A DNA stretch of 64,000 nucleotides from Conchocele bisecta. Its lineage: Eukaryota > Mollusca > Bivalvia > Lucinida > Thyasiridae. Every line of letters starts with the position of its first letter. The first letter of the stretch is position 1. The stretch covers positions 85,538,208 to 85,602,207 of the forward strand of contig CM055271.1 in NCBI GenBank assembly GCA_029237695.1, read 5' to 3'. Under the pieces are notes generated by a model. It saw only the letters and a program-made list of their open reading frames with translations. It made no database searches and was not told the origin of the DNA. This document shows, piece by piece, positions 1,275 through 45,280 of this stretch. Position numbers and translations under genes: made by a program.

Positions 1275-1310
<36 letters not shown>

Positions 1311-1375
1311 GAAAGAAAGAAAGAAAGAGAAAGAAAGAAAGAGAAAGATAGAAAGAAAAAAGAAAGAAAGAAATT
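1261..1375. repeat. (GAAA)n microsatellite
   Basis: About 115 bases of near-pure GAAA/GAAAGA tetranucleotide repeat. It is followed at 1380-1435 by three short imperfect repeats of a TCGTCCGCTA-type motif. Confidence 0.9.
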
Positions 1376-1915
1376 CAAATCGTCCGCTATTTGGTCAAAT
1401 CGTCCGCTATTGGTTAAAGTCGCCCGCTAGTATACTATATTATCATGATACAATGCTATCCAAACTGGTAAAATTCAGTTTTGTTGCGTATACCAAGGTG
1501 TTACCGGTGTTCGTGCCCATAAGGAGTAAAGTAAAAAGAAATAGAATACACGATTTGCCTGAACAGATATAAATCTTGTACAAAGACTACAACCATCCCT
1601 CAATCATTTCACATGATATCCGAGTTCATTCATGAAACATTGGTACGAATGCTGTCTATTTTTGTGACGTCATGTAATATGTCGTAATTGTAGAAACAGT
1701 ATTCCTGCCCTTCCAGGAAATGAGTGTGTGAGTGTCTGCATTGAAGCTTCCTCAATAATTTTTACAGAAAAAGATACCAAAAATGTTTCTTATTTTGTTT
1801 CTAATTCGATTAATAAAATATAATGTGATAAGTGCTGCACATTACTCACAAGAATATATGCCGTATTAAATCGGCAAAACTAGTCGTTTACTATTACATG
1901 ACAGAGACTGTGACA
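1376..1915. other. Intergenic, no gene seen
   Basis: AT-rich sequence between the microsatellite and the Academ-like fragment. I found no inverted repeat matching the 3701-4478 side, so no transposon end can be placed here. Confidence 0.4.
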
Positions 1916-3700: not shown

Positions 3701-4478
3701 TTTCAGATTTAATCACACAAAATGTAATATACACACAAGTCCACGGCAAATTTTAATTAGCCAGTGGGTGGGGCTTCACGAAGCTACCACGGGACTGACG
3801 AAACGACCAATCGGGCCGAACCTGACAATAATATAGGGTGGGACGTCACGTCGTGCAGTCGCCAGTGACTTGACTAACGGCAGTGTTGTGCCGGGAATAG
3901 AAAATGTCACACACAACGCTGACATTAAAATTCGATGATACACGCGTTGTATGGAAATGTGGCGCGAAAAATCAATAAACGCGCTCAGTACCGCCTGATA
4001 TTATAAGCATGTACATGCTATACAGCGGGGAAACTACTCAACATAGACATGATTGATGTGTAAAACTATGACTATTTAAATCAAATACGCACCTGTTTGT
4101 GTAAATCTTCTGACATTTAGACACAGTTCACTTTGTTCCGGAACATGTGTGATTTTTTTATGTCAGGAATCCGGAGTATCATATAAAATAGAAATTTCAT
4201 ATGAATAGTTTCTATCTCATGTAATATGAATCGAGTAAGTATGGCTACGCCACAATCTATGGATGTTTATGACATTTCAAATAATTCCTGCTGCACTAAT
4301 GGTATTTAACTCGAAATGTGGGCGGCCATTTTGAATTTCCGTTCCTGAGCATTGAGCAAAAATTTGGAAGGTCTACACAGTTGAAATGTATTACCAGGGT
4401 CCCAAAGACGGTATTAGCAGTGTCAAACCAAAAATAGCACTCAGGCCCGGAAAAACTTATATTTTGGGGCTGGGCGCT
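3701..4478. other. Flank of the Academ-like fragment, no gene seen
   Basis: Upstream side of the minus-strand fragment. It contains GACCAATCGG near 3805 (a CCAAT-type motif on the + strand) but no TATA box and no second terminal repeat. The rest is unremarkable AT-rich sequence. Confidence 0.35.
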
Positions 4479-6420
4479 TCAGGTAAAGTTCACGTTATAT
4501 ATCTCGACTGTGTGTTGGTAAGTCAGGGTCATATATCTCTAATCTGGGTTGGTAAGTCCAAGTTATATATCTTGACTGGGTTGGTAAGTCCACGTTATAT
4601 ATCTCGACTGTGGTTTGGTAATTCCTAGCTATATATCTTGACAGTGGCTTGGTAAGTCCATGTTATATATCTCGACTGTGGGTTTGTATGTCCACGTTAT
4701 ATGTATTGAAAGGGTTGGTAAGTCCAAGTTATATATCCTGACTGTGGGTTGGTAAGTCCACATTATATATCTTGACTGTGGGTTGGTAATTCCAGGTTAT
4801 ATATCTTGGCAGTGGGTTGGTAATTCCAAGTTATATATCCTGACTGTGGGTTGGTAAGTCCACGTTATATATATCCACTGTGGGTTAGTAATTCCAGGTT
4901 ATATATCTTGACTGTTGCTTGGTAAGTCAGGGTTATATATCTCTACTGTGGGTTGGTAAGTCCAAGTTATATATCTTGACTGTGGGTTGGTTAGTCCAAG
5001 ATATATATCTCGACTGTGGGTTGGTAAGTCCACGTCATAATATGTCGACTGTGGGTTGGTGTCCAAGTCATAATATCTTGACTGTGGGTTGGTGTCCAAG
5101 TCATAATATCTCACCTGTGGGTTGGTGTCCAAGTCATAATATCTCGACTGTGGGTTGGTGTCGAAGTCATAATATCTCGACTGTGGGTTGGTGTCAAGTC
5201 ATAATATCTTGACTATGGGTTGGTGTCCAAGTCATAATATCTCGACAGTGGGTTGGTGTCAAGTCATAATATCTCGACTGTGGGTTGGTGTCAAGTCATA
5301 ATATCTCGACTGTGGGTTGGTGTCCAAGTCATAATATCTCGACTGTGGGTTGGTAAGTCCAAGTCATAATAATATCTCAACTGTGTGTTGGTGTCCAAGT
5401 CATAATATCTCAACTGTGGGTTGGTGTCCAAGTCATAATATCTTGACTGTGGGTTGGTGTCCAAGTCATAATATCTTGACTGTGGGTTGGTGTGCAAGTC
5501 ATAATATCTCGACTGTGGGTTGGTGTCAAGTCATAATATCTCGACTGTGGGTTGGTGTCCAAGTCATATCTCGACTGTGGGTTGGTAAGTCCAAGTCATA
5601 ATAATATCTCGACTGTGGGTTGGTGTCCAAGTCTTAATATCTCGACTGTGAGTTGGTGTCAAGTCATAATATCTTGATTGTGGGTTGGTAAGTCCAAGTC
5701 ATAATATATGGACTGTGGGTTGGTATCCAAGTCATAATATCTCGACTGTGGGTTGGTGTCAAGTCAGAATATCTTGACTGTGGGTTGGTGTCCAAGTCAT
5801 AATATCTCGACTGTGGGTTGGTGTCCAAGTCATAATATCTTGACTGTGGGTTGGTGTCCAAGTCATAATATCTTGACTGTGGGTTGGTGTCCAAGTCATA
5901 ATATCTCGACTGTGGGTTGGTGTCCAAGTCATACTATCTTGACTGTGTGTTGGCGTCAAGTCATAATATCTTGATTGTGGGTTGGTAAGTCCAAGTTATA
6001 TATCTTGACTGTGGGTTGGTAAGTCCAAGTCATAATATATCGACTGTGGGTTGATAAGTCCAAGTAATAATATTTTGACTGTGGGTTGGTAAGTCCAACT
6101 TATAATATATATCGATTGTGGGTTTGTAACTGCAAGTCATAATATCTTGATTGTGGGTTGGTAACTGCAAGTCATAATATCTCGAATGTGAGTTTGTGTC
6201 AAGTTATAATATCTTGACTGTGGGTTGGTTTCCAAGTCATAATATCTCGACTGTGGGTTGGTGTCAAGTCATTATATCTTGAATGTGCGTTGGTGTTCAA
6301 CTCATAATATCTTGACTGTGAGTTGGTGTCCAAGACATAATATCTCGACTGTGAGTTGGTGTCAAGACATAATATCTTAACTGTGGGTTGGTGTCCAAGT
6401 CATAATATCTCGCCTGTGGG
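4479..6420. repeat. 33-35 bp satellite array, about 57 copies
   Basis: Head-to-tail repeats with core GACTGTGGGTTGGT. In the left third (to about 5030) the unit is 34-35 bp with GTAAGTCCAAGTTATATAT. In the middle it becomes 33 bp with GTGTCCAAGTCATAATAT, with occasional 32-bp and 36-bp units. The right end (5980-6420) mixes both types. Because 33 is a multiple of 3, long open frames run on both strands (TVGWCPSHNIS on +, DTNPQSRYYDL on -). These are products of the repeat, not genes. Confidence 0.95.
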
Positions 6421-6797
6421 TATAATAATGTCAATTAAAACGTTTGGTAATGGTAATTTATTATGCCAAAAAAAGGCCATATCTAAATTATGAACGGAAG
6501 TAATATGTCTCCCCATATTACAACATGGGATGTGGGACCCCATCTCTAAAGGGCATATCAGAATTTTTTTTTAAAATACTATCAAAAAATAAAAACGTGT
6601 TTTCATCATGGCCCTGTGTAAGTGGTTTAATTGAAGATATACAATACTAGGACTGCTGAATTTTTTAATAGAATTATTTTTAGGATTTAAAAAAAAAATA
6701 ATGTATTTTCATCATGGCCCTGTGTAAAGTGGTTTAATTGAAGGTATATGCTGATACTAGGACTGACTGCTGGTTTGTTTGAATTTTCAACGATATT
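6421..6797. other. Intergenic with one local duplication
   Basis: The segment beginning CATCATGGCCCTGTGT near 6605 recurs near 6711 with a similar downstream tail, a direct duplication of about 106 bp. No gene was seen. Confidence 0.5.
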
Positions 6798-7040
6798 GGG
6801 GGTCGTTTCACTTAACTTTGTATGACTAAAATGTTCGTAAGTGCAAAATTATGATAGTCTGTAAATTTCACATTAACATCGTTTCCGTGTAAATAAATAT
6901 TGGATTTACATTTATTGAGCATAGGCTGCATATGCAGCCTATGCTCAATAAATGTAAATCCATAAATTGAAATTTTCAGACGATCTTAAATTTGCACTTA
7001 CGAACATTTTAGTCGTAAGAAGTTTAGTGAAACGGGCCCC
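6798..7040. mobile_element. MITE with GTTTCACT termini and a perfect 62-bp central palindrome
   Basis: Long inverted repeats: the left arm starts GGGGTCGTTTCACTTAACTT, and the right arm is its diverged reverse complement ending GTTTAGTGAAACGGGCCCC. The centre (6901-6962) is a perfect palindrome with 31-base arms and no loop. A second copy lies at 29825-30030. Non-coding. The target duplication is not clear. Confidence 0.75.
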
Positions 7041-7614
7041 GGATTTTCAATCTTGTTGAACGCAACAAGATAGGAAATCCGATATTTATGTATATATGGG
7101 TGAATACTGTTTATAGTATGTTTTAAAAAAATCCTGATATGCATCCATTCACTTTTTTTTAGCAGAACGTGGTTTCTTACTAAAGGTGGTCTTTAACCCT
7201 TTCAACCCTACACTCTTCTACCATAATGTTCATAAATTATGCAGTTTCAGATGAGCCAGCTTGTAGTGAGCCATCTCATCAGAATCTGCACCATTTTTGT
7301 CTATAGTCGCTGCTTTTTCCGTCGTCCGCTGAACACTTAACCATTTTTTTCTTGCGTCGAAAACTTTGTAAAAGCTTCCTCATCCTGCTATAACTTTCAT
7401 ATTACTTGACGCATTCATTCAATGTTTGGACACTTGATACATCTAAGCATTTGGAACACACTAATGCCGCCATTCACATAACCTTGACCGTTTTTACCTT
7501 CAAATTCTGGCTGAAATTTTTGTGTCTAAATGTTTGTACAAGCTTCTACACATCATGGGATACATGTAAGACATTTTCAATGCGGAGTCCTAGTATCGGC
7601 ATATATCTTCAATT
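7041..7614. other. Lead-in to tandem array, no gene seen
   Basis: Near 7235-7295 there is a diverged fragment of the 'GATGAG...CTCATC...GATCTGCAC' core found in the MITEs at 53390 and 56451. No exon was supported. Confidence 0.4.
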
Positions 7615-8960
7615 AATGAAACCTTATAGGAATATTTGTCACCGTGTGAAGTTGCGCACCTGGGGTTTTAGATGCGGATTCATCCAGTATTCGCAGAGTT
7701 ATGGCTCTCGACTTAGTGAAAAGTGGCAATTTTCAACTTGTGTCGCACATAACTGAAAAGCTATTTGAGCTACAGTCATGAAACCTTATAGGAATATTTG
7801 TCATCATGTGAAGTTGTGCACCTGGAGTTTTAGATGCCGATTTATCTAGTATTCACAGAGTTGTGGCCCTTGACTTAGTGAAAAGTGGCAATTTTCAACT
7901 TGTGTTGCACATAGCTGAAAAACTATTTCAGCTACAGTCATGAAACTTTATAGGAATATTTTTCATGTGAAGTTGCGCACCTGGGGTTTTAGATGGGGAT
8001 TCATTCAGTATCCGCAGAGTTATGGCCCATGACTTAGTGAAAAGTGGAGATTTTCAACATGTGTCGCACATAACTGAAAAGCTATTTGAGCTACAGTCAT
8101 GAAACCTTATATGAATATTTGTCATCATGTGAAGTTGTGCACCTGGAGTTTTAGATGCCGATTTATCTAGTATTCACAGAGTTATGGCTCTTGACTTAGT
8201 GAAAAGTGGCAATTTTCAACTTGTGTCGCACATAAGTGAAAAACTATTTGAGCTACAGTCATGAAACCTTATAGGAATATTTGTCATCATGTGAAGTTGT
8301 GCACCTGGGATTTGAGAAGCGGATTCATCCAGTATACACAGAGATATGGCCCTTGACTGACTTAGTGAAGAATCGATTTTCAACTTGTGTCGCACATAAC
8401 TGAAAAACTATTTGAGCTACTGTCATGAAACCATATAGAATTGTTTGTCATCATGTGAAGTTATGCACCTTGTATTTTTACATCCGGATTCATTCAGTAT
8501 TCGCAGAGTAATGGCCCATGACTTAGTAAAAAGTGGCTATTTTCAACTTGTGTCGCACATAACTGAAAAACTATTTGAGCTACAGTCATAAAACCTTATA
8601 GGAAAAGGTTGCCATATTAGTTCAGTAGGTAGAGCGTTGGACTGCGGATCGGGAGATCCCAGGTGCCGTCGTTAAATCAAAGCATTTATTTATCTTATAG
8701 GAATATGTATCATCATGTGAAGTTGCACACCTGGAATTTTAGATGCGGATTCATCCAGTATTCACAGAGTTATGGCCCTTGATTTAGTGAAAATTGGCAG
8801 AGTTATGGCCCTTGACTTGTGTTGCCGGTAACTCAAAATATATTTCAGGCATGAAACTATATAGGAATGTTAATCAGCATGTGTAGTTGTGTTTTGTTTG
8901 CATATTCATCTAGTATAGAGCTATGGCCCTTGACAAGTGAAAATTACATTTGGTGTCTCT
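7615..8960. repeat. Tandem array of about 160-bp units
   Basis: Seven to eight units start near ATGAAACCTTATAGGAATAT and carry GTGAAGTTGTGCACCTGG, TTTTAGATGC, CTTGACTTAGTG and CAACTTGTGTCGCACATAA in fixed order. Spacing between successive units is 162, 162 and 159 bases. The last units are degraded and one is interrupted by the SINE at 8605-8694. Confidence 0.9.
8596..8703 (+). mobile_element. Short tRNA-derived SINE with 9-bp target duplication
   Basis: The insert at 8605-8694 interrupts a tandem-repeat unit and is flanked by TTATAGGAA at 8596-8604 and 8695-8703. The head resembles a tRNA: A-box TAGTTCAGTAGG (8618-8629), then AGAGCGTTGGACTGCGGATC like a tRNA anticodon arm. The B-box region (AGATCCCAGGTGCCG) is degraded. 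The tail is AT-rich. A functional tRNA is unlikely because the acceptor stem and B-box do not form. Confidence 0.7.
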
Positions 8961-10445
8961 TTTTAGCTCACCTGAGCGAAGCTCATGTGAGCTATTGTTA
9001 CCACAATGTGTCCGTCGTCTGTCGTTGTCCGTCGTCGTCCGTCGTCGTCCGTGAACATTTTCAAACGTCTTCTCCTCGGTAACCATTGGGCCTATAGTCA
9101 CCAAACTTCATGGTCATGGTCCTTAGGTAGGGGGATTACAAAATTGTTAAAATGACGTCATTACGTAATCCAAGATGGCCGCCGTCTAAAAATAGCACAA
9201 ATTCTTCAAAAATCGCCAACCGGATTTTGACAAAAGTTGGTAGGAATGATCGGTGTACAATGCTCTTTCAAAGTTCATAAAAGTGTGACCCCGGGGGTCA
9301 AAAATGGGCGTGGCCCGTGGGGTCAAATTGGGGTCAAATTTTATTTTTGACCGAATATGGTCATGTTATATATCAAATCGAAATTGGATGGTTATGTCAT
9401 CTAAGATGGCCGCCGAAAGGTCAAAAGGTCGTTCTTTTATCAGAGATTTCAAAATTCTTCTTCACATGAACCGCTTGGCACATGGTAGCCAAATTTAAAA
9501 GTTATGGGCCATGTGTGAAACCTTTTCAGATTTGTTAAAAGGGAGGTCATTGCTAATCCAAGATGGCCGCCGTCTAAAAATATCATAAATTCGCTGGCTG
9601 GCTGGCTGGCTGGTTGGTAGGAATGATCGATGTACAATGCTCTTTCAAAGTTGTTAAAATGGTGACCCCAGGGTCAAAAATGGGCGTGGTCCGTGGGGTC
9701 AAATTAGGGTAAACTTTTATTGGATGGTCATGTCATCCAAGATGGCCGCCGAAAGGTCAAAAGGTCGTTCTTTCATTAGAGATTTCAAAATTCTTCTTCA
9801 CACGAACCGCTTGGCCGATGGTGGCCAAACTTCACAGTTATGGTCCATGGGTGAAGCCTTTTCAGATTTGTTAAAACGGAGGTCGTCACTAATCCAAAAT
9901 GGCTGCCGTCTAAAAATAGCACAAATTCTTAAAAAATCTTCATCTCGTGAACCGCCAGCTGGATTTCGACGAAACTGGGTAGGAATGATCGATGTAGAAT
10001 GCTCTTTCAAAGGTGTTAAAATGGTGACCCCGAGGTCAAAAATGGGCATGGCCCGTGGGGTCAAATTTTATTTTTGACCGAATATGCTCATGTCATATAT
10101 CAAATTGAAGGTATTGATGAGGCGATTGCTCTGGTGCAATATTTGTCGGAATCGGATGATTATGTCATCCATGATGGCCGCCAAAAGGTCCATTTATTCG
10201 AGATTTTGTACGTCTTTTTCTCAGGAACCACATGGCCGAAGCTGGCCAAACTTCATAGTTAAGTTAAGATCCTTGGGTGAAGCATTTTCAGATTTGGTAA
10301 AATCAGAGTCATCGCTTAATCCAAGATGACCGCCATCTAAAAATAGCACAATTTTTTTAAAACACATATGAACTCAATGTCACATTCTCCTCTGGTGTTC
10401 ATGGAGTCAGGTGAGTGAATTAGGGCCATCATGGCCCTCTTGTTT
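8961..10445 (+). repeat. GCTCACC element, copy 1 (full length)
   Basis: It begins TTTTTAGCTCACCTGAGCG and AGCTCATGTGAGCTATTGTT, runs into a GTCCGTCGTC-rich stretch, then has four imperfect internal units of roughly 380 bp, each with CCAAGATGGCCGCC, GGGGTCAAA and GACCGAATATGGTC. It ends GGGCCATCATGGCCCTCTTG. The same start and/or end occur at 30631, 33129 and 62681. There are no coding domains; open frames within it repeat from unit to unit. Confidence 0.85.
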
Positions 10446-10993
10446 ATTTTGTTGATAGCTAACTTACACAGAAAAAACAAGGTAGCTACATATATCTGTT
10501 GTTGCCTTAAATTCTAATTTTCCAAGTCCTGATTATACATGCAGTGGTGGTGGGGGGCCGGGAGACATATGTTTTTGTCTGACAACAACCATATAGTTTC
10601 CGTTTGGTGGTCCCGCCTCTATATGACCTTAGCTGTTGCTGTGACATTAAACCAATTCACTTTCACTTTTTGCAAACCGTGTAGATCCAGGCGAGTCTCG
10701 TCAGGATCTGCACATTTTGTAAGTAATTTTCATATTTTTTTTAGAACAAAAAAACCAGTCCCAGTTTATAATATAAGAATATTCAACTCTACGTGGGTGG
10801 AAATTTTCAGAATATATACGGATATCAGGATTTGAGGTTCCTGAAAATTGCAGAAAAATACTAATGGTTCAACATGGGAAGCTAAATTTTATGCATTTTT
10901 GGGTGTCAAAATATGTTCTTAGCCGTTTTCAGGATTTGGCATTTGGAACTCTTCTTCCCATTCCTGACTGTATGACTTATTTTGTATTCATAG
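10446..10993. other. Intron or 5' flank of the TRAF exon
   Basis: Non-coding. At 10664-10790 lies a truncated copy of the MITE family seen at 53390 and 56451 (GTGTAGATCCAGGCGAG, CAGGATCTGCAC). The last 20 bases form a splice acceptor (TTTTGTATTCATAG, ending 10993). Confidence 0.6.
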
Positions 10994-11318
10994 ATGGCTC
11001 GTAACCAGATAGAAAACCACTTCGGCAAGAATTTACCGTTACACACTGAATGGATTATGGGACAAGTGATGACTTTCCGCTCCGATCTGGATCGTCTGGC
11101 TGCCGATGGATCGTCCAGTGGTGTGGTCAACCGGCAGATAGCTGATATCGTGGCTAAACTGACGATGGTGGAACAACAGGTGGTTCGCCTCGTCAACGAT
11201 GTGGCACAGCAACAATCGGGGGCGATAGATGGAGACATGCGACAATACGTCAACCAGATGGTGAAGACTGTGAAGGACAAATATTCCGCTGTGGAAGTCG
11301 ATATGAACGCCTTCGGTT
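10994..11318 (+). CDS. TRAF: TRAF-family adaptor, internal exon (coiled-coil region)
   Basis: This exon encodes about 108 residues starting at an ATG immediately after a splice acceptor, so the methionine may be internal. The peptide is charged and heptad-rich (QIADIVAKLTMVEQQVVRL, MVKTVKDKYSAVEVDMNAFG), as expected for the trimerising coiled coil N-terminal to a TRAF-C domain. The exon ends before GTAAGC at 11319 and leaves one base of a split codon. The next exon, at 17419, supplies the missing two bases, so the reading frame continues across a 6.1 kb intron. RING and TRAF-type zinc-finger exons were not found upstream in this window; they may lie outside it. The gene link rests on phase, strand and domain fit, not on a transcript. 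Confidence 0.7.
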
Positions 11319-13135
11319 GTAAGCTTTTGTCTTTCTTTAGTATACACGTATCCATGAAACACATAGCCATGCGATATAAATAAATATAGGGTTAACTGCA
11401 GGGCTCCAGACAAGGAATTAGTAATTCAGTATTGTCACTCCATCATTTCTGAAGCAATTGGGTATAGTTTTTAGTGAATTTTCAATGCGACCTATCATTT
11501 TCAAATTTCAAAATTACAATGCGGCTAACCTATTTCTAATGCACTCCTTTACTACTGGCGTAGGAATACATGTGCGACCGTTCATCAACAATGATATACC
11601 TGTAATGTATGACCATCAGCCAATCAGATTGCGTGATATTTAGTGCATTAGAAAGTTGTATGTTCTCAATGATGTAAATATTATAATTTCCGGTGAGATA
11701 TCAGTAGTTCCGGTATCTATATTCATATGTTCTCCTAAAAAAGCATATTCTTCATCTACATTGCTTGGCCCTAAATGATACTCTTTTGTGTTGGCCCGTT
11801 AAACACCATTACATTCCATTCCTACTAAAGCTGCAATATCGTGGTGAAATATCTATTGCATACGCACACCTGCCAAGCTGAGGTAGGATGTACACGCCAA
11901 TACACTCGTGTTACCGTATATAGTTTAAAAAACTGACCAATAGCTTGGTGGGGTATATAATAAATCAAATATTCATATTTTTGTAACAAATATGACGTAT
12001 ATCTTCATCTCCTGGTGTGAAATATCCATATTTCATGAGTGCCATTTACACCATTTCACATCACTCGATGGCACTCGTGAAATATGCACATTTCACACCA
12101 CTCAATGAACATATATGTCCTATGCAATGCAACAATCAGAATATTCTCTATTTATTACCGGCTCGTTGGCGGGAAGATGGCAATAATCCATGTATCACAC
12201 TGGTCAACAGAGCTCCAGATAAGGCGTGTATTCCTTTATTTTACACCGTTACATTTTTAGCTGAATATGCATTCATTTTCTAAAGTGGGAGTACAAAATA
12301 CTCACAACAATTGAAAAATACTGATTTTCAAACCGAGGAGTAAAATGTTGTAATTATGTTAAATTAACTCATTTGAGTTTTTAGTGAATTTTCAACCGTT
12401 TGCTTTGCCCATTTATTCCCTATGTTGTATTGGAAAAAGATGTGATAAATTCAGTGATCCATTTGTATTAAATTTGAAATCAGTGGCTGTACTCTTTAGA
12501 CAGAAAATTTGCTAAAATGGCACAAAATTCAGGGGAAAATTTAGGAATTTTACTTTTTCTTTGCCAGTAATAGAAATATTAACCTTTAACACATGGGACA
12601 TGTCAATTGCCATCTGTTGTTGTTTAAAAATTGTCTTTTTATACGCCCATTTTGAAAAAAAAAAAAAAAAAACATTTTGTTTTACCGAATGGCGGGCGTG
12701 CGGCGGGCAGAAAATCATTGTGTTAAACATAAGTCATATACCGCTTGGAATGTCGTCATGAAACTTCACAGGTGCGTTGATATCAATTGGTTGAATATCA
12801 ATTTGTCCGCCCAAGGTCAAGGTCACCAGTGCTAATAATTTCACATTGGACTGATACTATTTTGTGTAATCAAATCCTCTGACAGTTTTAGTCAATGGAT
12901 CTGAAACTTTGCACATGTGCACCATGGTGTTTTTATGACGTGCGTATGGACACTATATCTCTGAAACTTTTTCGTCAATTCACTAAAAACTTCACGTGGG
13001 TGTACATATCATGATCCATATTTTCATGCAATGCCCAACCTGTGCGGCCTCTGTGCCCAATGTCAAATTACTTTTAAATTTACCTTAACCCTTACAATAC
13101 GGGGCGCCAAGTGGGACATGGCTCAATTTTGTCAA

Positions 13136-21191: not shown

Positions 21192-21333
21192 ATAAAGAAC
21201 ATTTTGTGCCTACTGAGTGGGCATGTACCTTTAAAACAATGTATACATGTTCGCTCTATCTGTAGCTTTAGTTAATGTCAATCGGTTACCGACATTTAAA
21301 TTAGTATTTACGGTTCAATTAACTCTTTGATGT
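21192..21333 (-). repeat. Inverted copy of the TRAF C-terminus and 3'UTR
   Basis: The reverse complement of this segment matches 18064-18220 with one visible substitution and one 15-base deletion. The deletion removes exactly five codons and leaves the frame ending in E-P-stop instead of the gene's longer tail. The two copies face each other across the HINE-like element and about 420 bases of other sequence. Confidence 0.9.
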
Positions 21334-21500
21334 TGTTTTTGCGAAGAATTGATTTCCGTGTCCGTAGACAGCGATTCTTCGCAAAAATGACAGAAGTTAG
21401 GGCCAATGTACCAAAATCACCAAATGCAGCTAAACAAGATGCGCCATATTTAATATAAATCCGTTGCATAATAAGGACAAAATAAAACAATGTGTACTTT
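21334..21500. repeat. Left part of the repeat split by the Academ-like insertion
   Basis: It contains a hairpin made of TTTTTGCGAAGAATTGATTTCCG and CGATTCTTCGCAAAA, then CACCAAATGCAG, ATGCGCCATATTT and ATAAGGACAAAATAAAA, ending GTGTACTTT. The same sequence continues uninterrupted at 30170-30420; its right part here is at 27141-27215. Confidence 0.85.
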
Positions 21501-22295
21501 TAGTCTAGGGTCCTGATATGGTTGAGTGTGCACTAAAATGTACCCTCAGTTTGACTTCAGATATTGGTAGGTGGGTGGTCCAAGGTCTAAAAACAATTGG
21601 TCACGCGATCCAAGTCATGTGACTTTTCCCACCATTTTGTTTTTCAAACCATTTTACGAAAATGTATATGTCTCAGAAGGCAAGGCATTGCGTATTTGTT
21701 TTAGCTTCAACCCCCCTAGAATATGATGCATATTATGCTAGATTGGTTTATAATACAGAAAAATACAACTTTTGATACTAGTATTGGATATTTCTATAGA
21801 AAAAAGGAAAAATGTATAAGAAAATGCATGAAAAAATGCTGTTTTTTCATATATGGGTTACTTTATATACATACCTAAAAAATAATACTATCAATATAGT
21901 GACATATTGTGCATTTTTTACTTCGGAGGGATGGTGTGATTGGGATTGGTGTGGTTCAATTCGCGAAAACAGCTTATTTTATGAGAAAAATATGAAAACA
22001 TTACCCCACCCACTTTCTGGACATGCATTGAATTACTACATGTACAATATTATTTGGATATATCTCGTTAAAAATGTTATCATTCGAGATATATTTATGA
22101 AACTTCACGAGATGAGAGCAATCGCTATGAGAAGCATTATTATGTATGAAACGTTTATAGCCATGAGTACTCGTTGCCATGGTAACCGTTAACCGGACCA
22201 AAATTAGTGGGTTTTTTTATATTTAAGTAATCTGTGCACGATTCTCACATACCTGTATACATATCTAAGTGGTACTGATATCAGTGTCAGTAAGC
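21501..22295 (+). repeat. Left terminal inverted repeat of the Academ-like element
   Basis: It aligns through its length with the reverse complement of 26425-27140. Shared landmarks include TTGACTTCAGATATTGGTAG, TGATACTAGTATTGGATATT, TTACCCCACCCACTTT and GCCATGGTAACCGTTAACC. Its inner half (21930-22200) is partly repeated directly at 22300-22520. Confidence 0.85.
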
Positions 22296-23325
22296 AACGT
22301 GATTATGTGATTGGGATTGAGATGCGTCAATTCATGAAACTATATTTTGTGTGAATATAGTAAAACATTACCCCACCCACTTTTAAGACATGCGTTATAT
22401 TATTACTACATTATTCGGATATATCTTGTTAAAAATATTATCATTTGATATATAATTATGTGTGGATGTATTGGTGTTTTAAATATATTTAACGTTGCCA
22501 TAGCAACCGTTTTTATAAAGGCCCCAAAACACAATTATTATTAAATTTCAAGCTTGTGCTTTTCCTAAACTACATGTACATATATTGGCAATTAAAAAGT
22601 ATGTCAATTGAGTGACTGCCCGAGCAACAATCAGCAATCTACAATCAGCTGTATTTAAACAAGAATTATGGCGCGTTATCAAACGTCTGCGCTGTTCTAT
22701 ATACGATATTTGCACCAAATAATTTGTGGAAAATACATATTCGAGGCTCATTACATCCAAATATACACCTTACCATATACATACATGTTAGGGATACATG
22801 AAATATAACACTTACGACAATCTTAAATTTTATAATTTTGAAAGTAATACAAAACATGATGGTCCAGCTCTGGAGAAACCACTCTTTTGGCATCGCCATA
22901 TTTCACCGATAGCGATTTTGCAAAATCAAAAATATTTAAAATATGACATTGAATGCCGACATAAATGTTGAAAATTAACCTATTTTTAAATCAATATTTG
23001 CGAAATACGGCGATACCGTAAGAGAAGTTTCTCCAGAGCCAGACCCATATATGAGACGGGTCATATGATTTTGTTCCTTTAAACAACTGCGATGTTTTAT
23101 GACAACTATTTACAAAAACTGTGATACGTTAGGATGTCAGATGAAGTAAAGACTTGACACAAATTGCAGAAGACGAATATAATTTCGCATGTACTTTGGA
23201 AATGGAAATTTGTCAACTTTTGACGTCATTCACGGAATGTATGAAACACTGCAGCTTGTTACAACACTACAGTGTTTAATCATATGTTTCCTAATTTAGT
23301 TGTCTATTACCTAGAAACACGTGAT
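22296..23325. other. Academ-like element, non-coding 3' side
   Basis: 22300-22520 is a diverged direct repeat of the inner left arm (same CATTACCCCACCCACTTT and GCCATAGCAACCGTT landmarks). 22520-23325 shows no recognisable sequence; open frames are short and unsupported. Confidence 0.5.
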
Positions 23326-26198
23326 TCATTCCGTTCGATTGTTTGGGTTTTGGCACGAGTCGGAAGCTTCACATTTACAGAATTCACAACAACTTAAGTC
23401 AGCTACACAACATGGAAACGCTCCAGAGTGCGCACACTTTTCACAGCGACATGGAATTGGAAATGCATCAGGGAGTTTTATGCCTCTAGTAACAACTGGG
23501 GTGAGAACATCATCGCACAATGTGTACCCATACTCCTTTGGATCAAGCGTTCTCTCTTGACGACATGGTGCATATAACCATTGATGACATTGAAAGTATG
23601 CCCTCTGAATATGGAATCTGATGCTCGCCGATGTCGGTGCCAGTCGCTCAAAGTTATTTGAAATGGTCTTATGGTGGTATTGATGGTATCTTAGTTCGTA
23701 AAATGTATCAAATTTGTCGTCTCCGGAAACAGCGCATACAAGGAAATACTCGGCATCAGCCAGAATTCCTTCCGTTAGTGCTGTTTTACCAAAGTTTTTC
23801 AGCAACTCTGGTCCGAAACTGTTTCCCAACTTCAGAACGGCGTGCTTAGTTGAAACTTTACAGGTAGAATCACAACCACTAATAAGGGAATGTATAGCTG
23901 GCAACACATCCACCATGTCATGGTTCAGCTTTGCACTCAGGGCATGGAGTGGTACTGACCTTGATGTTTTACCTTGTCCACATACGATCCAGAGCTCAAT
24001 CAGTCACAACTGTTTCCAGCTACTGTTGAAGTGATACAGCAGACAAACGAACACTGTGTCTGGTGATACTACTACAATCAGTTTGAAAGAGCCAGTCGTC
24101 ACTGCATGGTTTACGTGGAGTAATAATCTGTCATCGGCTTCGTCATGGTATCTGTGGAGACATGGAACATCAGTGACTGTCTGAGAGCCATCTCTACGCA
24201 TTTCCAAACATCTTCTTCGTGTGAACCTCCAAGGTAAACAACATGTGAACTGTCGATGTGATCCAGTCTGGGTTTGATTATCCATTTCGAGAAGAATGTT
24301 TCCCAGCGGATTTTGTTCACAGTGGATGCCCAAAAAGTTTCCATATTCACCATCAATGGTGTGTCATCTCGCTTGATAGTCACTTCAATGGGATCCGATT
24401 TGCTTCTTCTCATTCGTTCAAAATCCTTGATTCCACCAGATTCATAGATGTCAAATACTATATCAATGCGCTTGGCAGACCTTGCGATTCTAGTGAATCT
24501 ATCCCACAGGTTACTGGCAATATTGCCAAATGTTCTTAACTTTAGTTGTTTAACTGGTACGCTTCGGGAATGTGCCACGAAGTCCACAATCACGGCCGTC
24601 TCCTTAACATCAGATGCATATACATCGGGAAGCTGTGTAGACCCACCCAGGTTCTTCTCTATCTCGCGTTGGAGTTCTGATTTCGGCGATTTACGCAAAT
24701 AACCATCTTTCGTCAGATTGAGTGAGGTGGATGTTAGCTCGAACTTCAGTAGTTCAGCTACGTCATAGCTTCGACTTCTGGCAATGTCAATGTACCTTAT
24801 AGCGTCTTGTGTCTCCTTCTGAATATTTACAGTGTAAACTTTCTTCTGTTTCCCTTTCCCTTTCGGTATTGGATCTGACAGTTGTTTTGTCTTCTGTTCA
24901 AACCGCGTTGAGAAAAAGTTCTGGTAAGTTTCATCGCCATCTTTCATGAATTCAAAAATAACTTTGCATCTCTCGCTGTCGGCTTGGGTTCCCGTTTCAA
25001 AGTTCTTCAAAGTGCAGTCTCCCGAAATCTCAAAGGGATTCCCTGTCTCTAACACATATTGCACCATCTGCTGTATGCACTGCTCATCTCTCGCTGTTGT
25101 TGCATTGGAAAACTCGTGATGGAGCGAGTATTCGTCTTCGTCATCTAATTCGCAGTAGTGCCTCATCCATTGCGAGATCTTTTTCATTTTTGACTAGGTC
25201 ATGTTGAGCCACTGAATCTTTGCGACGTGTTATACCTATAACACCTCCCCGACCCTTAGCTGGTTTGTTGTACATTTGTTCAAGGGCTTGATCCATGGGT
25301 ACATTGCTGAACTTTCTTTTTGTCTGGCGTACAACAAAATGGCCTTTCAGGAATTCTGTGTGGATGGATGGAAATGACTGTGGCAGCTGAAGACAATCTT
25401 CATAGAATACTGAGCCCCATCGTGAGTAATGTGTCTTGTCAAATGCGAAGAATAGCGGCAGGCACCTGCCCAGTGCGGATATGTATTGCTCACAGCTTCC
25501 ATCCCTGTGTGATCTCGTCAAATCCCGTAAAAGAGGAACGAACATGGAAATAAATTGATTCCAGTACTTGAAACTGTTGCTACTCGTGACACCATGTGCA
25601 ACAAAATCATGAAGGTCCTCTTTGAAGGTTTTAATTGATGCGATGCATTTTTCATATGACGACCTTGCTTCGATTTCGTCTCTTTGCTTGCAGACTGTCT
25701 GAAGTAACTCTATGACGTCGAGAAGTTCCTTATATCGCAGCATGTCACATTGGTTGACAAATACTAGCAGCTGGAGTCGCTGCATCACCTCTGCGAGCAT
25801 ATAAATTCCGTGCATCGCCCGTGCATAGTGGCTGCCCTTTAGGATGCTATCCACTGTCGTTCAAGTATTTCCCAATGCATGAGAGAAGAACTTTCGTCAT
25901 GTGGAAACCGCCAAGACCAAGAAATATATTACCAAGGCGTTCTGGTGGGAGCAACAGTTGAAGTTCTTTGGCCGTACTGTAGACAGATTCGTCACACCAG
26001 AGAGAGCCTGCTTGAAGAAGTGTGTCCTGGAAATTCACCATACATGTGTATATAGTCATACTCGGATGCCGGATATGGCAGAATCGGCTTGTAGCCTATC
26101 GACGTAGGTTCTGATTCATCAGATGATATCAAGCTGTGAAATGCGCTCCATGATGGCAACAATCCGTAGAAAACTACCGCGGCAAGGAGAATACTCAA
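23326..26198 (-). pseudogene. Academ-like transposase fused to PIN/XPG-like nuclease, frameshifted
   Basis: One long protein read right to left, broken at about five points (near 26050, 25850, 25160, 24150 and 23960). Order of parts: a stretch with YKPILPYPASEYDYIHM; DESVYSTAKEL and LGGFHMTKVLLSCIGKYL, which I take as part of the transposase core; FAFDKTHYSRW; PMDQALEQMYN with GGVIGITRRKDS; then the nuclease: TAVIVDFVAHSRSVP, IDIVFDIYE, EADDRLLLH, a degraded third acidic strand, and SLISGCDST; then LDPKEYGY and a Cys-rich tail (CRCEKC, CEFCKC, ending CQNP). The motif series IVD, VFD, EAD-R, GCD follows the FEN1/XPG acidic pattern. In the third strand (VVVSPDTVFVCLLYH) the usual DTDV is altered. 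The N-terminal zinc-finger part, present in the 1916-3700 relative, is absent. Function is inferred from motif order. Confidence 0.8.
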
Positions 26199-26424
26199 AA
26201 TATAACGATTTCCAGCAACTTACTAAAACATTAATTATATCGAGCTTCACCTAGGCATACCGATTTATTTTTTAATAAAATCCTGGAAATACCGATTAAA
26301 TGGAAACACACAAAAAACAACAAACATTGGAATCTTGGAGAGATTAATCAACCGGTCTGCCTCATCCGGGCTACGGCCATATCTACAAACAAGTAAAGTA
26401 TTGAGGGCTAGCGTAATTATTCTT

Positions 26425-27140
26425 ACTCACACTAATATCTGTGCCACTTAGATAGTAATACAGGTTTGTTAGAACCATAAACATGCTATTTGAATATAAA
26501 AATACATTGATTTCGGTTTGGTTAACGGTTACCATGGCAACAACCATGACTGTAAACATGTAAACATTTAATACATAATATTGCTTCTCATAGTGATTGC
26601 TCTAATCTTGTAAAGTTTCATGATTATATCCCAAATAATAACATTTTAACGAGATATATTTAAATAACATTGTAATAATAATAATGCATGTCTGAAAAGT
26701 GGGTGGGGTAAGGTTTTTATATTTTTTCCACACAATATGCATTTTTCATACATTGACGCTCCCCAATCTCGATAAGAGAATCATTCGGAAGTATCAAATG
26801 CATGATATGTCACTATGTTGATAGTATTATGTTGTCGGCACGTATATAAAGTAACCCATATATGAAAGAAACAGCATTTTTTCAAACATTTTCGTATACA
26901 TTTTTCTTTTTTTCTATATAAATATCCAATACTAGTATCAAAGGTTGTATTTTCCTGTATTACGAACCAATCTAGCATAATATGCATCATATTTTAGGGG
27001 GGAAAATGGCGGGAAAAGTCACATGACTTGGATCGCGAGACCAATTGTTTTTAGACCTTGGACCACCCACCTACCAATATCTGAAGTCAAACCCATGGTA
27101 CATTTCAGTGCACACTCAACCATATCAGGACCCATGACTA
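26425..27140 (-). repeat. Right terminal inverted repeat of the Academ-like element
   Basis: Counterpart of 21501-22295. It ends CATATCAGGACCCATGACTA at 27140. It is a little shorter than the left arm because of several small deletions. Confidence 0.85.
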
Positions 27141-27289
27141 TTTGAATCAGAGGGCTTCTGGAAGTTTCAATACTTGTTGTTGTTGTTGTTGTAACCACGT
27201 GATCATACACCTGGACTTATTCGGGTTAGAAAATGTACTTTAGGGCAATTGTGGTCTGTGCAGACTTCGATTATTTGTAGTTCTATATT
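27141..27289. repeat. Right part of the split repeat
   Basis: TTTGAATCAGAGGGCTTCTG through CCACGTGATCATACAC (to about 27210) continues the repeat begun at 21334-21500. It contains a TTG trinucleotide run that is longer here than at 30385. Confidence 0.8.
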
Positions 27290-28330
27290 GGCCACAAAAC
27301 TGATTTTGTGTTGATGACCACTAATTTATTCACCAAGGTCAAGGTCAAATACTTAGTCTCTTTTACAAAACTTAACATCAGAGAAATATTGTTATAACTT
27401 CTATTTCCTTCATCTAAAATGCTTAATATTTCACACATGCATTCCTGTAAGGCTCTACTACCATGCTGTGCCAAATCCATGACCGTCAAACCCCCGCTGA
27501 TCCCAAGGTCAAGGTCAAATACTTAGTCTCTTTACAAAACTTAACATCAGAGAAATATGTTGTAACTTCTCTAAAATGCTTAATATTTCACACATGTATT
27601 CCTGTAAGCTTCTACTACCATGCTGTGCCAAATCCACGACTGTCCAACCCCCGCTTATCCCAAGGTCAAGGTCAAATACTTAGTCTCTTTACAAAAGTTA
27701 ACATCAGACAAATATGTTATAACTTCTATTTCCTTCATCTAAAATGCTTAATATTTCACACATGCATTCCTGTAAGGCTCTACTATCATGCTGTGCCAAA
27801 TCCACGACCGTCCAACCCCCGCTGATCCCAAGGTCAAGGTCAAATATTTGGTCTCTTTACAAAACTTAACGTCAGAGAAATAAGTTATAACTTCTATTTC
27901 CTTCATTGAAAATTCTTAATATTTCACTTGTGCATTCCTCTAAGGTTGTACTATCATGCTATGACAAACCTACGACCGTCCAACCCTGGCTGATCCCAAG
28001 GTCAAGGTGACATACTTAGTCTCTTTACAAAACTTAACATCAGAGAAATATGTTATAACTTATATTTCTTTCATCGAAAATTCTTAATATTTCATGCATG
28101 CATTCCTCTAAGGCTCTACTATCATGATGTGACAAATCCCCGCTGATCTCGAGGTCAAGGTCACATACTTAGTCTCTTTACAAAACTTAACACGAGAGAA
28201 ATTGGTTATAACTTCTATTTCCTTGCTCGAATCTGCTTCACATTTCACACACGCATTGTTCCAATGGACCTCTACCACCGTGTGACAAATTCACGTTCGT
28301 GCCCAGGGTCAACGTCAGAAGCCCACACAC
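27290..28330 (+). repeat. Tandem array of about 180-bp units
   Basis: Five to six units share CCAAGGTCAAGGTCAAATAC, TTAGTCTCTTTACAAAACTT, AACTTCTATTTCCTTCAT and TGCTGTGCCAAATCCACGAC. A single undetermined base (n) sits just after the array at 28345. Confidence 0.85.
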
Positions 28331-30169: not shown

Positions 30170-30420
30170 ACAGTGAATATTTGTGTCGTTTTTGCGAAGA
30201 GTCGATTTCCGTGTCTACTGATTCTTCGCAAAAACGACAAATTGGTCCAAAGTACCGAGACCACCAAATGCAGCTTAACAAGACACGTTTGATGCGCCAT
30301 ATTTCATCAAAATCCATTACATAATAAGGACAAAATAAAAGTATACGTACTTTGAATCGGAGGGCTTCTGGAAGTTTCAGTACTTGTTGTTGTTGTAACC
30401 ACGTGATCATACACATTGCT
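30170..30420. repeat. Uninterrupted relative of the Academ-like target repeat
   Basis: It holds the same hairpin (TTTTTGCGAAGAGTCGATTT with ATTCTTCGCAAAAACGAC) and the CACCAAATGCAGCTTAACAA and GTACTTTGAATCGGAGGGC landmarks as 21334-21500 plus 27141-27215, but joined, with a single TTT at 30351-30353. Confidence 0.85.
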
Positions 30421-36263: not shown

Positions 36264-37103
36264 ATGTCGACCATTAAAGAGTTAATTGACGTAGGCAGGG
36301 AATTAGGCTTAACTGGGATGGAGTTAAGGTCCTTTGTGAAAGAAGAGCAAGACAGAGAGAGAATAGACTAGTAGAAAGACAGGCTGAGAAAGATAGGCTT
36401 GATGCTGATAGACTAGCAAATGAGGTAGATAGAAAGGCTGAGAAAGATAGGCTTGAGGCTGACAGACTAGCAAAAGAGGTAGAGAGATTGATTGAGAAAG
36501 ATAGGCATGAGACTGACAGACAGGCTGAGAAAGATAGGCTAGAGGCTGAGAGACTAGCAAAAGAGGTAGAGAGACTGATGGAGAAAGATAAGCTTGAGGC
36601 AGACAGATTGATGGAGGAACGAGAAATGGAAAAGGTAAGAATTGATTTGCAAATGACAAAAGTTAGATTGGAGTACGATTGCAAAATGCGTGAGTTAGAG
36701 ACCACGCAGAAAGTTGAGATAGCGAAGGCAGAAATGGGAATAGCGGATAATTATAGTCCAGTAGTCAAACATAAGATACCACATGGTCCAAAATTACCAT
36801 ATTTTGATCAGGATAAGGACAATATGGATAGTTATCTGGCACGGTTTGAACGTTACTCGGAAGTGCAAGGTTGGCCGAAAGGTCAGTGGTCATTACACCT
36901 TAGCACATTATTAAGGGGCAAAGCTCTAGATGTTTAGTCCCGTTTATCATTGGAAGATGCTCTTGATTATGACACATTGAAGACATCCTTGCTCAAAAGG
37001 TTGACTTAACGTAGAAGGGTTTAGGAAGCAATTCAAGAACGGTAAGCCAGAGCCCGGTGACATTTGTTTCAATATATCAACAGGGCTAAGAGTTATCTTG
37101 ATA
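36264..37103 (+). pseudogene. gag: gypsy gag, N-terminal part, broken
   Basis: Structural polyprotein of an LTR retrotransposon. It starts at ATG 36264 (MSTIKELIDVGRELGL) and stops at TAG 36369-36371. The adjoining frame carries a charged coiled coil of repeated AEKDRLEADRLAKEV units, then the capsid-like region (PKLPYFDQDKDNMDSYLARF, WPKGQWSLHLSTLLRGKA). Further lesions are a TAG at 36935-36937 and another break before 37020. The segment runs into an assembly gap at 37104. No functional gag can be made from this copy. Confidence 0.8.
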
Positions 37104-37603
37104 NNNNNNNNNNNNNNNNNNNNNNNNNNNNNNNNNNNNNNNNNNNNNNNNNNNNNNNNNNNNNNNNNNNNNNNNNNNNNNNNNNNNNNNNNNNNNNNNN
37201 NNNNNNNNNNNNNNNNNNNNNNNNNNNNNNNNNNNNNNNNNNNNNNNNNNNNNNNNNNNNNNNNNNNNNNNNNNNNNNNNNNNNNNNNNNNNNNNNNNNN
37301 NNNNNNNNNNNNNNNNNNNNNNNNNNNNNNNNNNNNNNNNNNNNNNNNNNNNNNNNNNNNNNNNNNNNNNNNNNNNNNNNNNNNNNNNNNNNNNNNNNNN
37401 NNNNNNNNNNNNNNNNNNNNNNNNNNNNNNNNNNNNNNNNNNNNNNNNNNNNNNNNNNNNNNNNNNNNNNNNNNNNNNNNNNNNNNNNNNNNNNNNNNNN
37501 NNNNNNNNNNNNNNNNNNNNNNNNNNNNNNNNNNNNNNNNNNNNNNNNNNNNNNNNNNNNNNNNNNNNNNNNNNNNNNNNNNNNNNNNNNNNNNNNNNNN
37601 NNN
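37104..37603. other. Assembly gap of exactly 500 N, probably artificial
   Basis: The 12 bases before the gap (GTTATCTTGATA, 37092-37103) are identical to the 12 bases after it (37604-37615). The gag frame on the left also continues in the same sense on the right. The gap is probably a placeholder across an overlap, not missing DNA. Confidence 0.8.
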
Positions 37604-39108
37604 GTTATCTTGATAAGTGGTTGGAACTAGGCAAAGATGAACGTACTTACGAAGGCGTGATAGATTTTTTGCTCATGGATCAGTGGCTAAGCACTTGCAG
37701 TCGTGACTTGTACGTTTTTCTCAAGGAAAAGGTCGTTAGCAAAGTACATGAGATGGCAGTGCAAGCTGACTTCTTTGAGGAAGCCAGAGGCGGTACAAAG
37801 TGCGTAGTACAGAGAGAGAACCGAGACAATAGAGCGAAAAGTGAGAATCGTAGCACAGGTTATGAGAGGAAGGTGAGAGGTCAAGGCGAGAGATATCGAG
37901 GCAATGACAGATCTCGTAACTATGGTAGAGAGAGAAGTGGCGAGAGAAGTAGAGAGAGTAGTAGGGAAAGGTACAGAGAGAATGACAGACGTACCATTAC
38001 ATGTTACCATTGTGGAGGTCAAGGTCACGTAGCTCCAGACTGCCCAAGAAGAGGTCACATGCATCGAGTGGCAGCCCTTGAGGAAAAGGATACTGGTGCA
38101 TATGGGCAAAAGAAGGTAAGCTTTGCAGGCAACGTTGACGAACCAGAAATGGATGATGCAATACATAGAGGCAGGAGTAGAGGCAGGAGCAGGGGCAAAG
38201 GGCGTTATCACCACTGCGGAAGAGGAGAGGGGCCCCTTTTCCCCTTTTCCCCACCTGTAGATCGGGGTAATTTTTGTATTGTAGAGGACAACCAGACCAA
38301 AGATGACGGGGAAATCACTATGATATACGCAGGTAAGGAAGTTGACCAGAGTCCGAAGGTTACAGGATGCAAATTTTCCAGTGCGAAGTTGCCAGTGGCA
38401 GAAGGTTTGTTAAATGGGAAAGTGGTGACAGTGATTCGTGATACAGGTTGCACGAGCGTGGTAGTGAGAAAGGAACTAGTACATCCTGATCAATTTCTCA
38501 GTAGAATGGCCACATGTATGCTAATAGACAAGACACGCTTGAGTGAAGTCCCTGTAGCGAGAATCACCATTGGCACCCCATTTTTCAAAGGAGAGACCGA
38601 AGCGTTATGCATGGAAGAAACTATGTACGATGTAACGATAGGGAACATTGATGGGTCACAACTTCCTGTACTGAATGATTTCAAAGGCGCGACCACGTTA
38701 GCATTTGAAACGCGTTCACAGGTTTTGAAACGCGATGAATCGTACCGGAAACTGCGGGTACCGGAAGCCGTATCTCAAGTTTCGCGTAGTGAATTCAAAG
38801 AACAACAAACAAGCTACGTTACGTTAACGTCATTACACACAAACGCAAAAAACGGAAACGTGAAGTATTCTAAGAACGGTAACGTTACGTCATTTCTGTA
38901 CCGAAAAGATTTACTGTATCGACAGTTTGAGACGACAGGTAATAACAGAAAATACCATCAATTAGTCGTTCCGGAAAAACTTAGACAGACTGTGTTAAAG
39001 GTGGCACATGAATCTATAATGTCAGGGCACTTAGGAGTAAAGAAAACAACAAATCGCGTTTTGGCAGAATTTTTCTGGCCTGGCGTGTCCGGTGACGTGA
39101 CACGATAA
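37604..39108 (+). pseudogene. gag-pol: gypsy gag C-terminus, zinc knuckle, protease and integrase zinc domain
   Basis: The capsid end (FLLMDQWLSTCSRDLYVFLKE) is followed by an Arg/Ser/Glu-rich linker, a CCHC nucleocapsid knuckle (CYHCGGQGHVAPDC, about 38001-38045), a basic region, and a retropepsin-like motif VIRDTGCTSVVV (about 38434) with the catalytic DTG. No RT follows. Instead the frame passes straight into the integrase zinc-binding region (VAHESIMSGHLGVKKTTNR, then FFWPG). It ends at an in-frame TAA (39106-39108) just before the paired cysteines of that zinc domain, which lie downstream as CRSCDIC. The direct step from protease to integrase is part of the evidence for the unusual gene order. 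Confidence 0.85.
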
Positions 39109-40065
39109 TGTAGGTCATGCGACATTTGTCAACGAACAATCTCGAAAGGTCATGTAATAAAGGCACCGCTAGGCAACATGCCACTGATTGACACGCCATT
39201 CAAACGCGTACCCGTATTCATCGTAGGACCGATTTATCCAGCAACGGATACTAAAAATCGGTATATTCTAAAGCTATTAGATTACGCCACACGATATCCA
39301 GAGACAGTACCATTACCGAGTATCGAAGCAGAACGAGTAGCTGAGGCACTCGTAGACATGTTCAGTCGTTTAGGAATTCCTGAGGAATTGTTGACTGATT
39401 GCGGATCTCAATTTACGTCGAACGTAATGCGGGAGGTCAGTAGACTATTATCACTGAGACAACTTACAACTACTCCCTACCATCCCATGTGCAACGGGTT
39501 GGTGGAGAGATTCAACGGTACATTGAAGCAGATGCTTAAACGCATGGCAAGCGAGCGTCCCAAAGATTGGGATAAGTACATTAACGCGTTGTTGTTCGCG
39601 TATCGCGAGGTTCCACAGGAGGGCCTAGCATTCTCCCCATTCGAACTACTCTATGGGAGAACAGTCAGAGGTCCTATGAGTGTTCTCAAGGATCTGTGGT
39701 CTGAGAAGGAACTTGACGAAAGCGTGAAAACTACATACCAGTACGTACTGGATCTCAGACAGAAACTCGAGCAAACGTGTGAAATCGCGAGAGAAAATTT
39801 CAAGAAATCGAGTAAACGGTACGCGAAGTACTATGACAGGAAAGCGCGTGACCGGAAGTATAAGGAGAGTGACCGGGTGTTAGTACTACTCCCCACTGAT
39901 AGGAACAAACTGTTACTCCAATGGAAAGGTCCATACCCTATAGTGGAGGTACTAAATGACTGGGATTATAGGATCGACATGAAGGGGAAACTGAAAACAT
40001 TCCATGTGAACATGTTGAAACGCTATGAAGAGCGTACGCCTCAAAGCCCAGGGAGGGGATACTAG
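39109..40065 (+). pseudogene. gypsy integrase core and C-terminal domain, catalytic residue lost
   Basis: It continues the frame after the TAA. It holds CRSCDICQRT, the core with LLDYATRYPETVPL, LLTDCGSQFTSNVM (second catalytic Asp), NGLVERFNGTLKQML (catalytic Glu), and a GPY/F-type C-terminal module (LLLQWKGPYPIVEV, FHVNMLKRYEERTP). The stop is at 40063-40065. The first catalytic Asp, normally in a V-D-I-V-G-P context, is Phe here (PVFIVGPIY, near 39215). With the upstream stop this makes the enzyme inactive. Confidence 0.9.
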
Positions 40066-42611: not shown

Positions 42612-45280
42612 TTCTTATGCCCCACCACGATAGTGGAGGGGGCATTTAGTGTTACCCTTGTCCGTCCGTCCGTCCGTCCGCACACACGAATTGGTACTTG
42701 TTGTAAGCGTACGAGGATCTTATTGGGTAGGGTTAGGATAGTGTTGGGTACTCTTGTTGGGTATTTTTATACAGTAAAAACCCAACAAGTATTCATAGGA
42801 ACGTGCGTCCCGTCATCCCGTCCGTCCGTCCGTCACAAAACTTTAACACTCGGGTAAATGTCTCATAATTTCTTCATCCTTCGACCGATCTGCTTCATAT
42901 TTCATATACACATTGCTCTGATGGTTCACTACCGCCCTGTGCCAAATCCACGTTCGTCCTGCCCCAGCCAAGCCCAGGGTCAAGGTTACATACTTGGTGC
43001 TTCAAAAACAAAAACTTTAACGCTCGGGTAAATATCTTATAATTTATGTTTTCTTTCACGGATCAGCTTCATATTTCATATACGCATTGCTCTAATGGTC
43101 CTCTACCGCACTGTGCCAAATCCACGTTCGTTCTGCCCCCGCCAAGCCCAGGGTCAAGGTCACATACTTAGTGCTTCAAAAACTTTAACTCTCGGGTAAA
43201 TATCTTATACTTTCTGTTTTCTTTCATGGATCATCTTCATATTTCATATACGCATTGCTCTAATGGTCCTCTACCGCCCTGTGCCAAATCCACGTTCGTC
43301 CTGCCCCGCCAATCCCAGGGTCAAGGTCACATACTTGGTGCTTCAAAAACTTTAACGCTCAGGTAAATATCTTATAATTTTTCTTTCCATTCACGGATCA
43401 ACTTCATATTTCATATAGTCGTTGCTCTAATGGTCCTCTACCGCCCTGTGCCAAATCCACGTTCGTCCTGCCCCCGCCAAGCCCAGGGTCAAGGTCACAT
43501 ACTTAGTGCTTCAAAAACTTTAACGCTCGGGTAAATATCTTATAATTTCTGTTTTCTTTCATGGATCATCTTCATATTTCATATACGCATTGCTCTAATG
43601 GTCCTCTACCGCCCTGTGCCAAATCCACGTTTGTCCTGCCCCCGCCAAGCCCAGGGTCAAGGTCACATACTTGGTGCTTCAAAAACTTTAACGCTCAGGT
43701 AAAAGAAAGTTTTGACTTGGAATTTGGCCTCATTTATTATCAAAGCGATATGTGGGACATCCGTGTTCTATGAACACATTTTGTAGTTTATTAAACTTCA
43801 CACATGCATAGAAGACGACCCAAAGGTGTGTCGCACGTAAGAATGACAACTCTTGCGTCGTTAATTTCTTAGTTATCTCCTTTTGTTGTTTCGTGCACTG
43901 ATTTCGTGTCTGGAGCATAACTCGAACACCCTTTGGAATATTCTTATGCCTCACCACGATAGTGGAGGGGGCATTTAGTGTTACCCTTGTCCGTCCGTCC
44001 GTCCGTCCGTCCGTCCGCACACACGAATTGGTACTTGTTGTAAGCGTACGAGGATCTTATTGGGTAGGGTTAGGATAGTGTTGGGTACTCTTGTTGGGTA
44101 TTTTTATACAGTAAAAACCCAACAAGTATTCATTCGTAGGAACGTGCGTCCCGTCCTCCCGTCCGTCCGTCCGTCACAAAACTTTAACACTCGGGTAAAT
44201 GTCTCATAATTTCTTCATCCTTCGACCGATCTGCTTCATATTTCATATACACATTGCTCTGATGGTTCACTACCGCCCTGTGCCAAATCCACGTTCGTCC
44301 TGCCCCCGCCAAGCCCAGGGTCAAGGTTACATACTTGGTGCTTCAAAAACTTTAACGCTCTGGTAAATATCTTATAATTTCTGTTTTCTTTCACGGATCA
44401 GCTTCATATTTCATATACGCATTGCTCTAATGGTCCTCTACCGCACTGTGCCAAATCCACGTTCGTTCTGCCCCCGCCAAGCCCAGGGTCAAGGTCACAT
44501 ACTTAGTGCTTCAAAAACTTTAACGCTCGGGTAAATATCTTATACTTTCTGTTTTCTTTCATGGATCATCTTCATATTTCATATACGCATTGCTCTAATG
44601 GTCCTCTACCGCCCTGTGCCAAATCCACGTTCGTCCTGCCCCGCCAATCCCAGGGTCAAGGTCACATACTTGGTGCTTCAAAAACTTTAACGCTCAGGTA
44701 AATATCTTATAATTTTTCTTTCCATTCACGGATCAACTTCATATTTCATATAGTCGTTGCTCTAATGGTCCTCTACCGCCCTGTGCCAAATCCACGTTCG
44801 TCCTGCCCCCGCCAAGCCCAGGGTCAAGGTCACATACTTAGTGCTTCAAAAACTTTAACGCTCGGGTAAATATCTTATAATTTCTGTTTTCTTTCATGGA
44901 TCATCTTCATATTTCATATACGCATTGCTCTAATGGTCCTCTACCGCCCTGTGCCAAATCCACGTTTGCCCTGCCCCCGCCAAGCCCAGGGTCAAGGTCA
45001 CATACTTGGTGCTTCAAAAACTTTAACGCTCAGGTAAAAGAAAAAAAAAATTTGACTTGCAATTTGGCCTCATTTATTATCAAAGCGATATGTGGGACAT
45101 CCGTGTTCTATGAACACATTTTCTAGTTTATTAAACTTCACACATGCATAGAAGACGACCCAAAGGTGTGTCGCACGTAAGAATGACAACTCTTGCGTCG
45201 TTAATTTCTTAGTTATCTCCTTTTGTTGTTTCGTGCACTGATTTTGTGTCTGGAGCATAACTCGAACACCCTTTGGAATA
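42612..45280 (+). repeat. Tandem duplication, period about 1.33 kb
   Basis: The block starting at TTCTTATGCC (42612) recurs at 43941. Each copy starts with CACCACGATAGTGGAGGGGG and (CCGT)n, then five units of about 180 bp with CTCTACCGCCCTGTGCCAAA, CCCAGGGTCAAGGTCACATA and CTTCAAAAACTTTAACGCTC, and ends in HINE-type sequence. The copies differ by only scattered bases. Confidence 0.9.

Follow-up and report, generated by a model that had tools for sequence, protein, structure and literature searches.

A decayed, probably Academ-type DNA transposon with a nuclease fused to a transposase-like half in the bivalve Conchocele bisecta

Introduction

What kind of mobile element lies between two long inverted repeats in the genome of the thyasirid bivalve Conchocele bisecta, and what does it encode? 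The stretch of DNA analysed here, hereafter the window, comprises 64,000 nucleotides (assembly GCA_029237695.1, contig CM055271.1, positions 85,538,208 to 85,602,207 of the forward strand), in which a first-pass annotation had described an Academ-like transposon with a single minus-strand gene. The element, of 5640 bp at 21501..27140, belongs to a well-bounded transposon family with 23 distinct target sites, and is very probably a decayed copy of an Academ-type DNA transposon of the AcademX branch; it looks like a clean further example of a known animal transposon type, not a new type. Its family also provides a structural case, in animals, for the fusion of a FEN/EXO1/XRN-fold nuclease to a transposase-like half.

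Ends, arms and target site

The inverted ends of the element read TAGTC(TA/AT)GGGTCCTGATATG, with TAGTCTAGGGTCCTG beginning at 21501 and its inverted counterpart, TAGTCATGGGTCCTG, finishing at 27140, and TTT stands immediately outside each of them (21498..21500 and 27141..27143). Alignment of the arms delimits a left terminal inverted repeat of 794 bp (21501..22294, plus strand) and a right one of 719 bp (26422..27140, minus strand), whose outermost 138 bp are 94% complementary; a 72-bp segment of the left arm lacks a counterpart in the right, and another part of the left arm, 21935-22099, recurs just inside it at 22306-22460. The ends, the flanking TTT and the arms of 0.7-0.8 kb are thus as they had been described. 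Borne out likewise is an uninterrupted relative of the target within the window, at 30180..30414 (plus strand): the left flank (21326-21500) matches 30180-30353 and the right flank (27141-27210) matches 30351-30414, and the overlap of these matches consists of precisely 30351-30353, a single TTT. This target had been called dated, a description that is not supported: because the flanks are only 76.6% (left) and 88.6% (right, over a short stretch) identical, the empty site is an old paralogue that marks the target of the insertion and not its time. Inside the element, at 22861-23045, lies a small imperfect palindrome with 58-nt arms (78%), which may be a nested miniature element.

Copies across the genome

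A search of the genome (1.89 Gb, 1196 contigs) with the outer 140 bp of the element yielded 40 scored places among 132 candidates, at 97-100% identity and including the copy in the window, a count that is a lower bound. All 40 copies were examined, 39 of them fetched as stretches of roughly 6.5 kb each; both ends are visible in 25, and in the other 15 one end only lies within the sequence fetched. The usual left end is TAGTCTAGGG and the usual right end TAGTCATGGG, with one end showing a single-base change from the terminal TAGTC/GACTA in three of the two-ended copies (L020, L036 and L046). A 3-bp target duplication fits 24 of the 25, among them L036, where a local repeat makes an 8-bp match also possible; the sole exception, L041, has a 4-bp duplication. 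L021 and L022 have a common flank, leaving 23 distinct 3-bp target sites at which the same ends recur. Collecting further copies and comparing their ends, as had been proposed, therefore upholds a multi-copy transposon with fixed ends and a 3-bp duplication. That we might instead be looking at no transposon at all, only an inverted repeat produced by chance or by segmental duplication around a captured gene, could draw on the fact that the element's flanks are themselves repeated within the window, but this explanation is refuted by the recurrence of the ends, each time with a 3-bp duplication of its own, and we give it practically no weight.

Family profiles find a coding piece in 30 of the 39 fetched copies and none in the other nine, and no whole reading frame was seen among the copies examined, since the longest profile-matching piece spans 461 residues, against more than 850 in relatives, incomplete as these are. 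In a coding block of 789 bases the median difference is 4.1% among 21 copies, namely those of the 30 having the block in which more than 80% of it is covered. Two copies that keep both ends look like non-autonomous forms: L041, a short form of 517 bp, and L040, which is 5701 bp long and in which the profiles detect no coding piece.

A broken gene for a two-part protein

Four open reading frames (ORFs) and one further fragment, all on the minus strand, carry the coding remains. The transposase-like half is represented by a fragment at 25850..26095, with WCDESVYS, containing the candidate second D, and LGGFHM, and by another at 25141..25860, with DQALE and the candidate catalytic E. The linker and the first part of a 5' nuclease, with the acids of IVDF and VFDIY, follow at 24111..25193 (family profile E 9.7e-129), the last residues of this piece falling in the wrong frame; the middle of the nuclease (EADDR, SPDT) continues in another frame at 24004..24363 (E 9.4e-18), and its end (GCDST), together with a Cys-rich tail, occupies 23326..24003 (E 6e-86). 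As the four ORFs are successive along the family profile in differing frames, they can be read as one gene broken by frameshifts. The single minus-strand gene of the first-pass annotation thus retains all its named motifs, but in this copy it is split over several frames.

Protein searches returned three relatives at first, 273 with an alignment and 313 with the N-terminal half, of which we inspected the best 120 in each of the two larger sets; by source name, entries from the fish Dissostichus and from Hydractinia are among the best 120 of the 273. In the relatives' gene the transposase-like half is fused to a nuclease of the FEN/EXO1/XRN fold with a ten-Cys tail: in P0012 and P0015 a single frame takes in the transposase half along with most of the nuclease, P0006, P0014, P0030 and P0072 have the end of the transposase half with nuclease and tail, and P0122 extends from the transposase-like part as far as the first motif of the nuclease. 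No single relative seen covers the whole protein. In Pfam scans with scores (the element's ORFs, P0072 and P0135) no match reached the cut-off, and precomputed Pfam marks number one among the best 120 of the 313 relatives and none among the best 120 of the 273; for these reasons, proteins of this transposon family are probably left unnamed in animal annotations.

Structural matches and the alignment give the nuclease half the fold and the conserved acid pattern of the FEN1/EXO1/XPG/XRN 5'-nuclease superfamily. The comparison with FEN1/XPG structures that had been suggested matched this fold, at 6-15% identity in the listed matches, and a profile search of PDB sequences gave three hits only, each with E >0.3. 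The acids presumably bind metal, as in FEN1. The FEN/XPG-type nuclease and the Cys-rich tail are accordingly both borne out.

The same nuclease family appears a second time in the window, as a decayed relative at 1919-3712 (minus strand), apparently without a transposase half. Its ORF at 2037-2720 has EADTRI and GRDITS, and pieces in other frames upstream appear by eye to hold the first acids of the nuclease as well as a zinc-binding start. It had been surmised that uncharacterised multi-copy animal proteins with EADTRI/GCDxTS motifs are probably transposon-encoded, which is supported in part: the family profile does reach this ORF (E 2.8e-34), but no terminal repeats were found around it within 1-12000, the window beginning only 2 kb away.

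What the N-terminal half may do

In a 21-row alignment, counting at each position the rows with letters there, the first D of DNFD is kept in 10 of 12 rows, the D of WCDEGVY and the H of GGFH each in 18 of 18, and the D and E of DQALE both in 20 of 20. Further, residues 99-337 of P0135, which bears the one precomputed PF20231 mark, align with positions 135-359 of the DUF6589 (PF20231) profile (E 3e-5, 23.3 bits), and P0072 scores 11.9 bits. On the strength of motif order and accompanying domains, we would label this half an RNase-H-like DDE domain. Most likely it would then bind the arms and, with the D of DNFD, the D of WCDEGVY and the E of DQALE, cut and join 3' ends staggered by 3 bp; at the ends of the element the fused nuclease would cut or trim the opposite (5') strand, or 5' flaps, in the manner of TnsA in Tn7. 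The duplications and the copies are observed directly; such a division of labour between the halves is inferred. We propose only tentatively, and at somewhat less than even confidence, a one-piece transposase with two nucleases, in which a DUF6589-homologous RNase-H-like domain would generate and join the 3' ends and a fused flap-type 5' nuclease would cut the second strand. Were this so, DUF6589 proteins would represent the cores of transposases, and transposons would be the source of many as yet unnamed proteins of animals that carry EADDR/GCDTTS motifs. The acids of the two halves are separable, making it directly testable at the bench which half cuts which strand.

Several observations weigh against these readings. 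Both DUF6589 scores lie below the cut-off of 27 bits, and the family is matched by only two members in a set of 21 and by two in a set of 57, with E up to 0.1; the E of RSHREG, another acid considered, is kept in just 13 of 20 rows; and the transposase half is poorly modelled, with a predicted local distance difference test (pLDDT) score below 50 at residues 33-153 of model 2, whose fold matches fall on the nuclease part and leave the RNase H fold unsupported. The transposase-like half proposed at the outset thus draws support from residue conservation and from a weak match to DUF6589, and none from a fold. The Academ placement, for its part, is one by agreement with published descriptions.

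Rival readings

Two points lend some substance to a DDE-like and FEN-type transposon from a lineage outside Academ, convergent in duplication length and nuclease: DUF6589, which has no assigned function, is the one family to which the transposase half could be linked, and the likeness to Academ is one to descriptions rather than to reference sequences. We nevertheless consider such a lineage improbable, given that both features attributed to AcademX in the available text of PMC10045372, the short duplication and the nuclease, are present, and that the length of the element agrees with that of bivalve Academ elements (PMC10294476, as far as available). More unlikely still is that the FEN/XPG-fold nuclease is itself the cutter, the arms extruding as a cruciform whose junction is cut in the manner of GEN1 and the N-terminal half only binding DNA, because duplications so nearly uniform at 3 bp accord with a DDE enzyme that transfers strands at a stagger, and that half keeps its D, D, H and E almost without exception. 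An Academ-type transposon of the AcademX branch thus remains our preferred reading.

Other features of the window

Repeats at roughly 160-170 bp spacing occupy 27333-28293 and 42835-45023, with about 70% identity between the two places. At 36290-40065, integrase-like and gag-like open frames, with a run of N intervening, resemble by eye a Gypsy-type retroelement. On the minus strand, at least 4632-6200 (of the 1200-6200 that was read) consists of short tandem peptide-like repeats (DTNPQSRYYDL) that look like a DNA satellite.

Comparison with known systems

In the available part of PMC10045372, AcademX and AcademH, lineages due to Kojima, are placed in one superfamily, AcademX elements having target duplications of 3 or 4 bp and AcademH elements of 9 or 10, lengths tied to an encoded nuclease and an encoded helicase, respectively. 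The present family resembles AcademX in both respects, all 25 two-ended copies having duplications of 3 bp or, in one case, 4 bp, and a nuclease being encoded with the transposase. AcademH was considered and set aside: no 9- or 10-bp flank match occurs in the 25 two-ended copies, and no Pfam helicase is listed for the element's four scanned ORFs or among the 22 families of 57 members. The size of the element is near the mean of 5565 bp for 100 curated bivalve Academ elements in PMC10294476, which, in the text available, describes Academ as nearly confined to bivalve molluscs; PMC9587614, also available in part, lists Academ with superfamilies having a DDD/E transposase, and the accessible portion of PMC10799480 concerns fungal helicases and has no bearing on the element. 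The Academ assignment of the first-pass annotation therefore agrees in duplication length, nuclease and size, as a placement by published descriptions rather than by a Repbase or Dfam entry. DUF6589 covers the transposase half, as seen in P0135, below the cut-off and with no function assigned by Pfam. The nuclease is like the FEN1/EXO1/XPG/XRN superfamily in fold and acid pattern and differs in its fusion to a transposase-like half. In Tn7, second-strand cutting is supplied by TnsA, a protein with a restriction-enzyme fold that is separate from TnsB. This pairing of TnsA with TnsB, two nucleases for two strands, serves here as a working analogy for the two halves of the element's protein, with no claim of homology.
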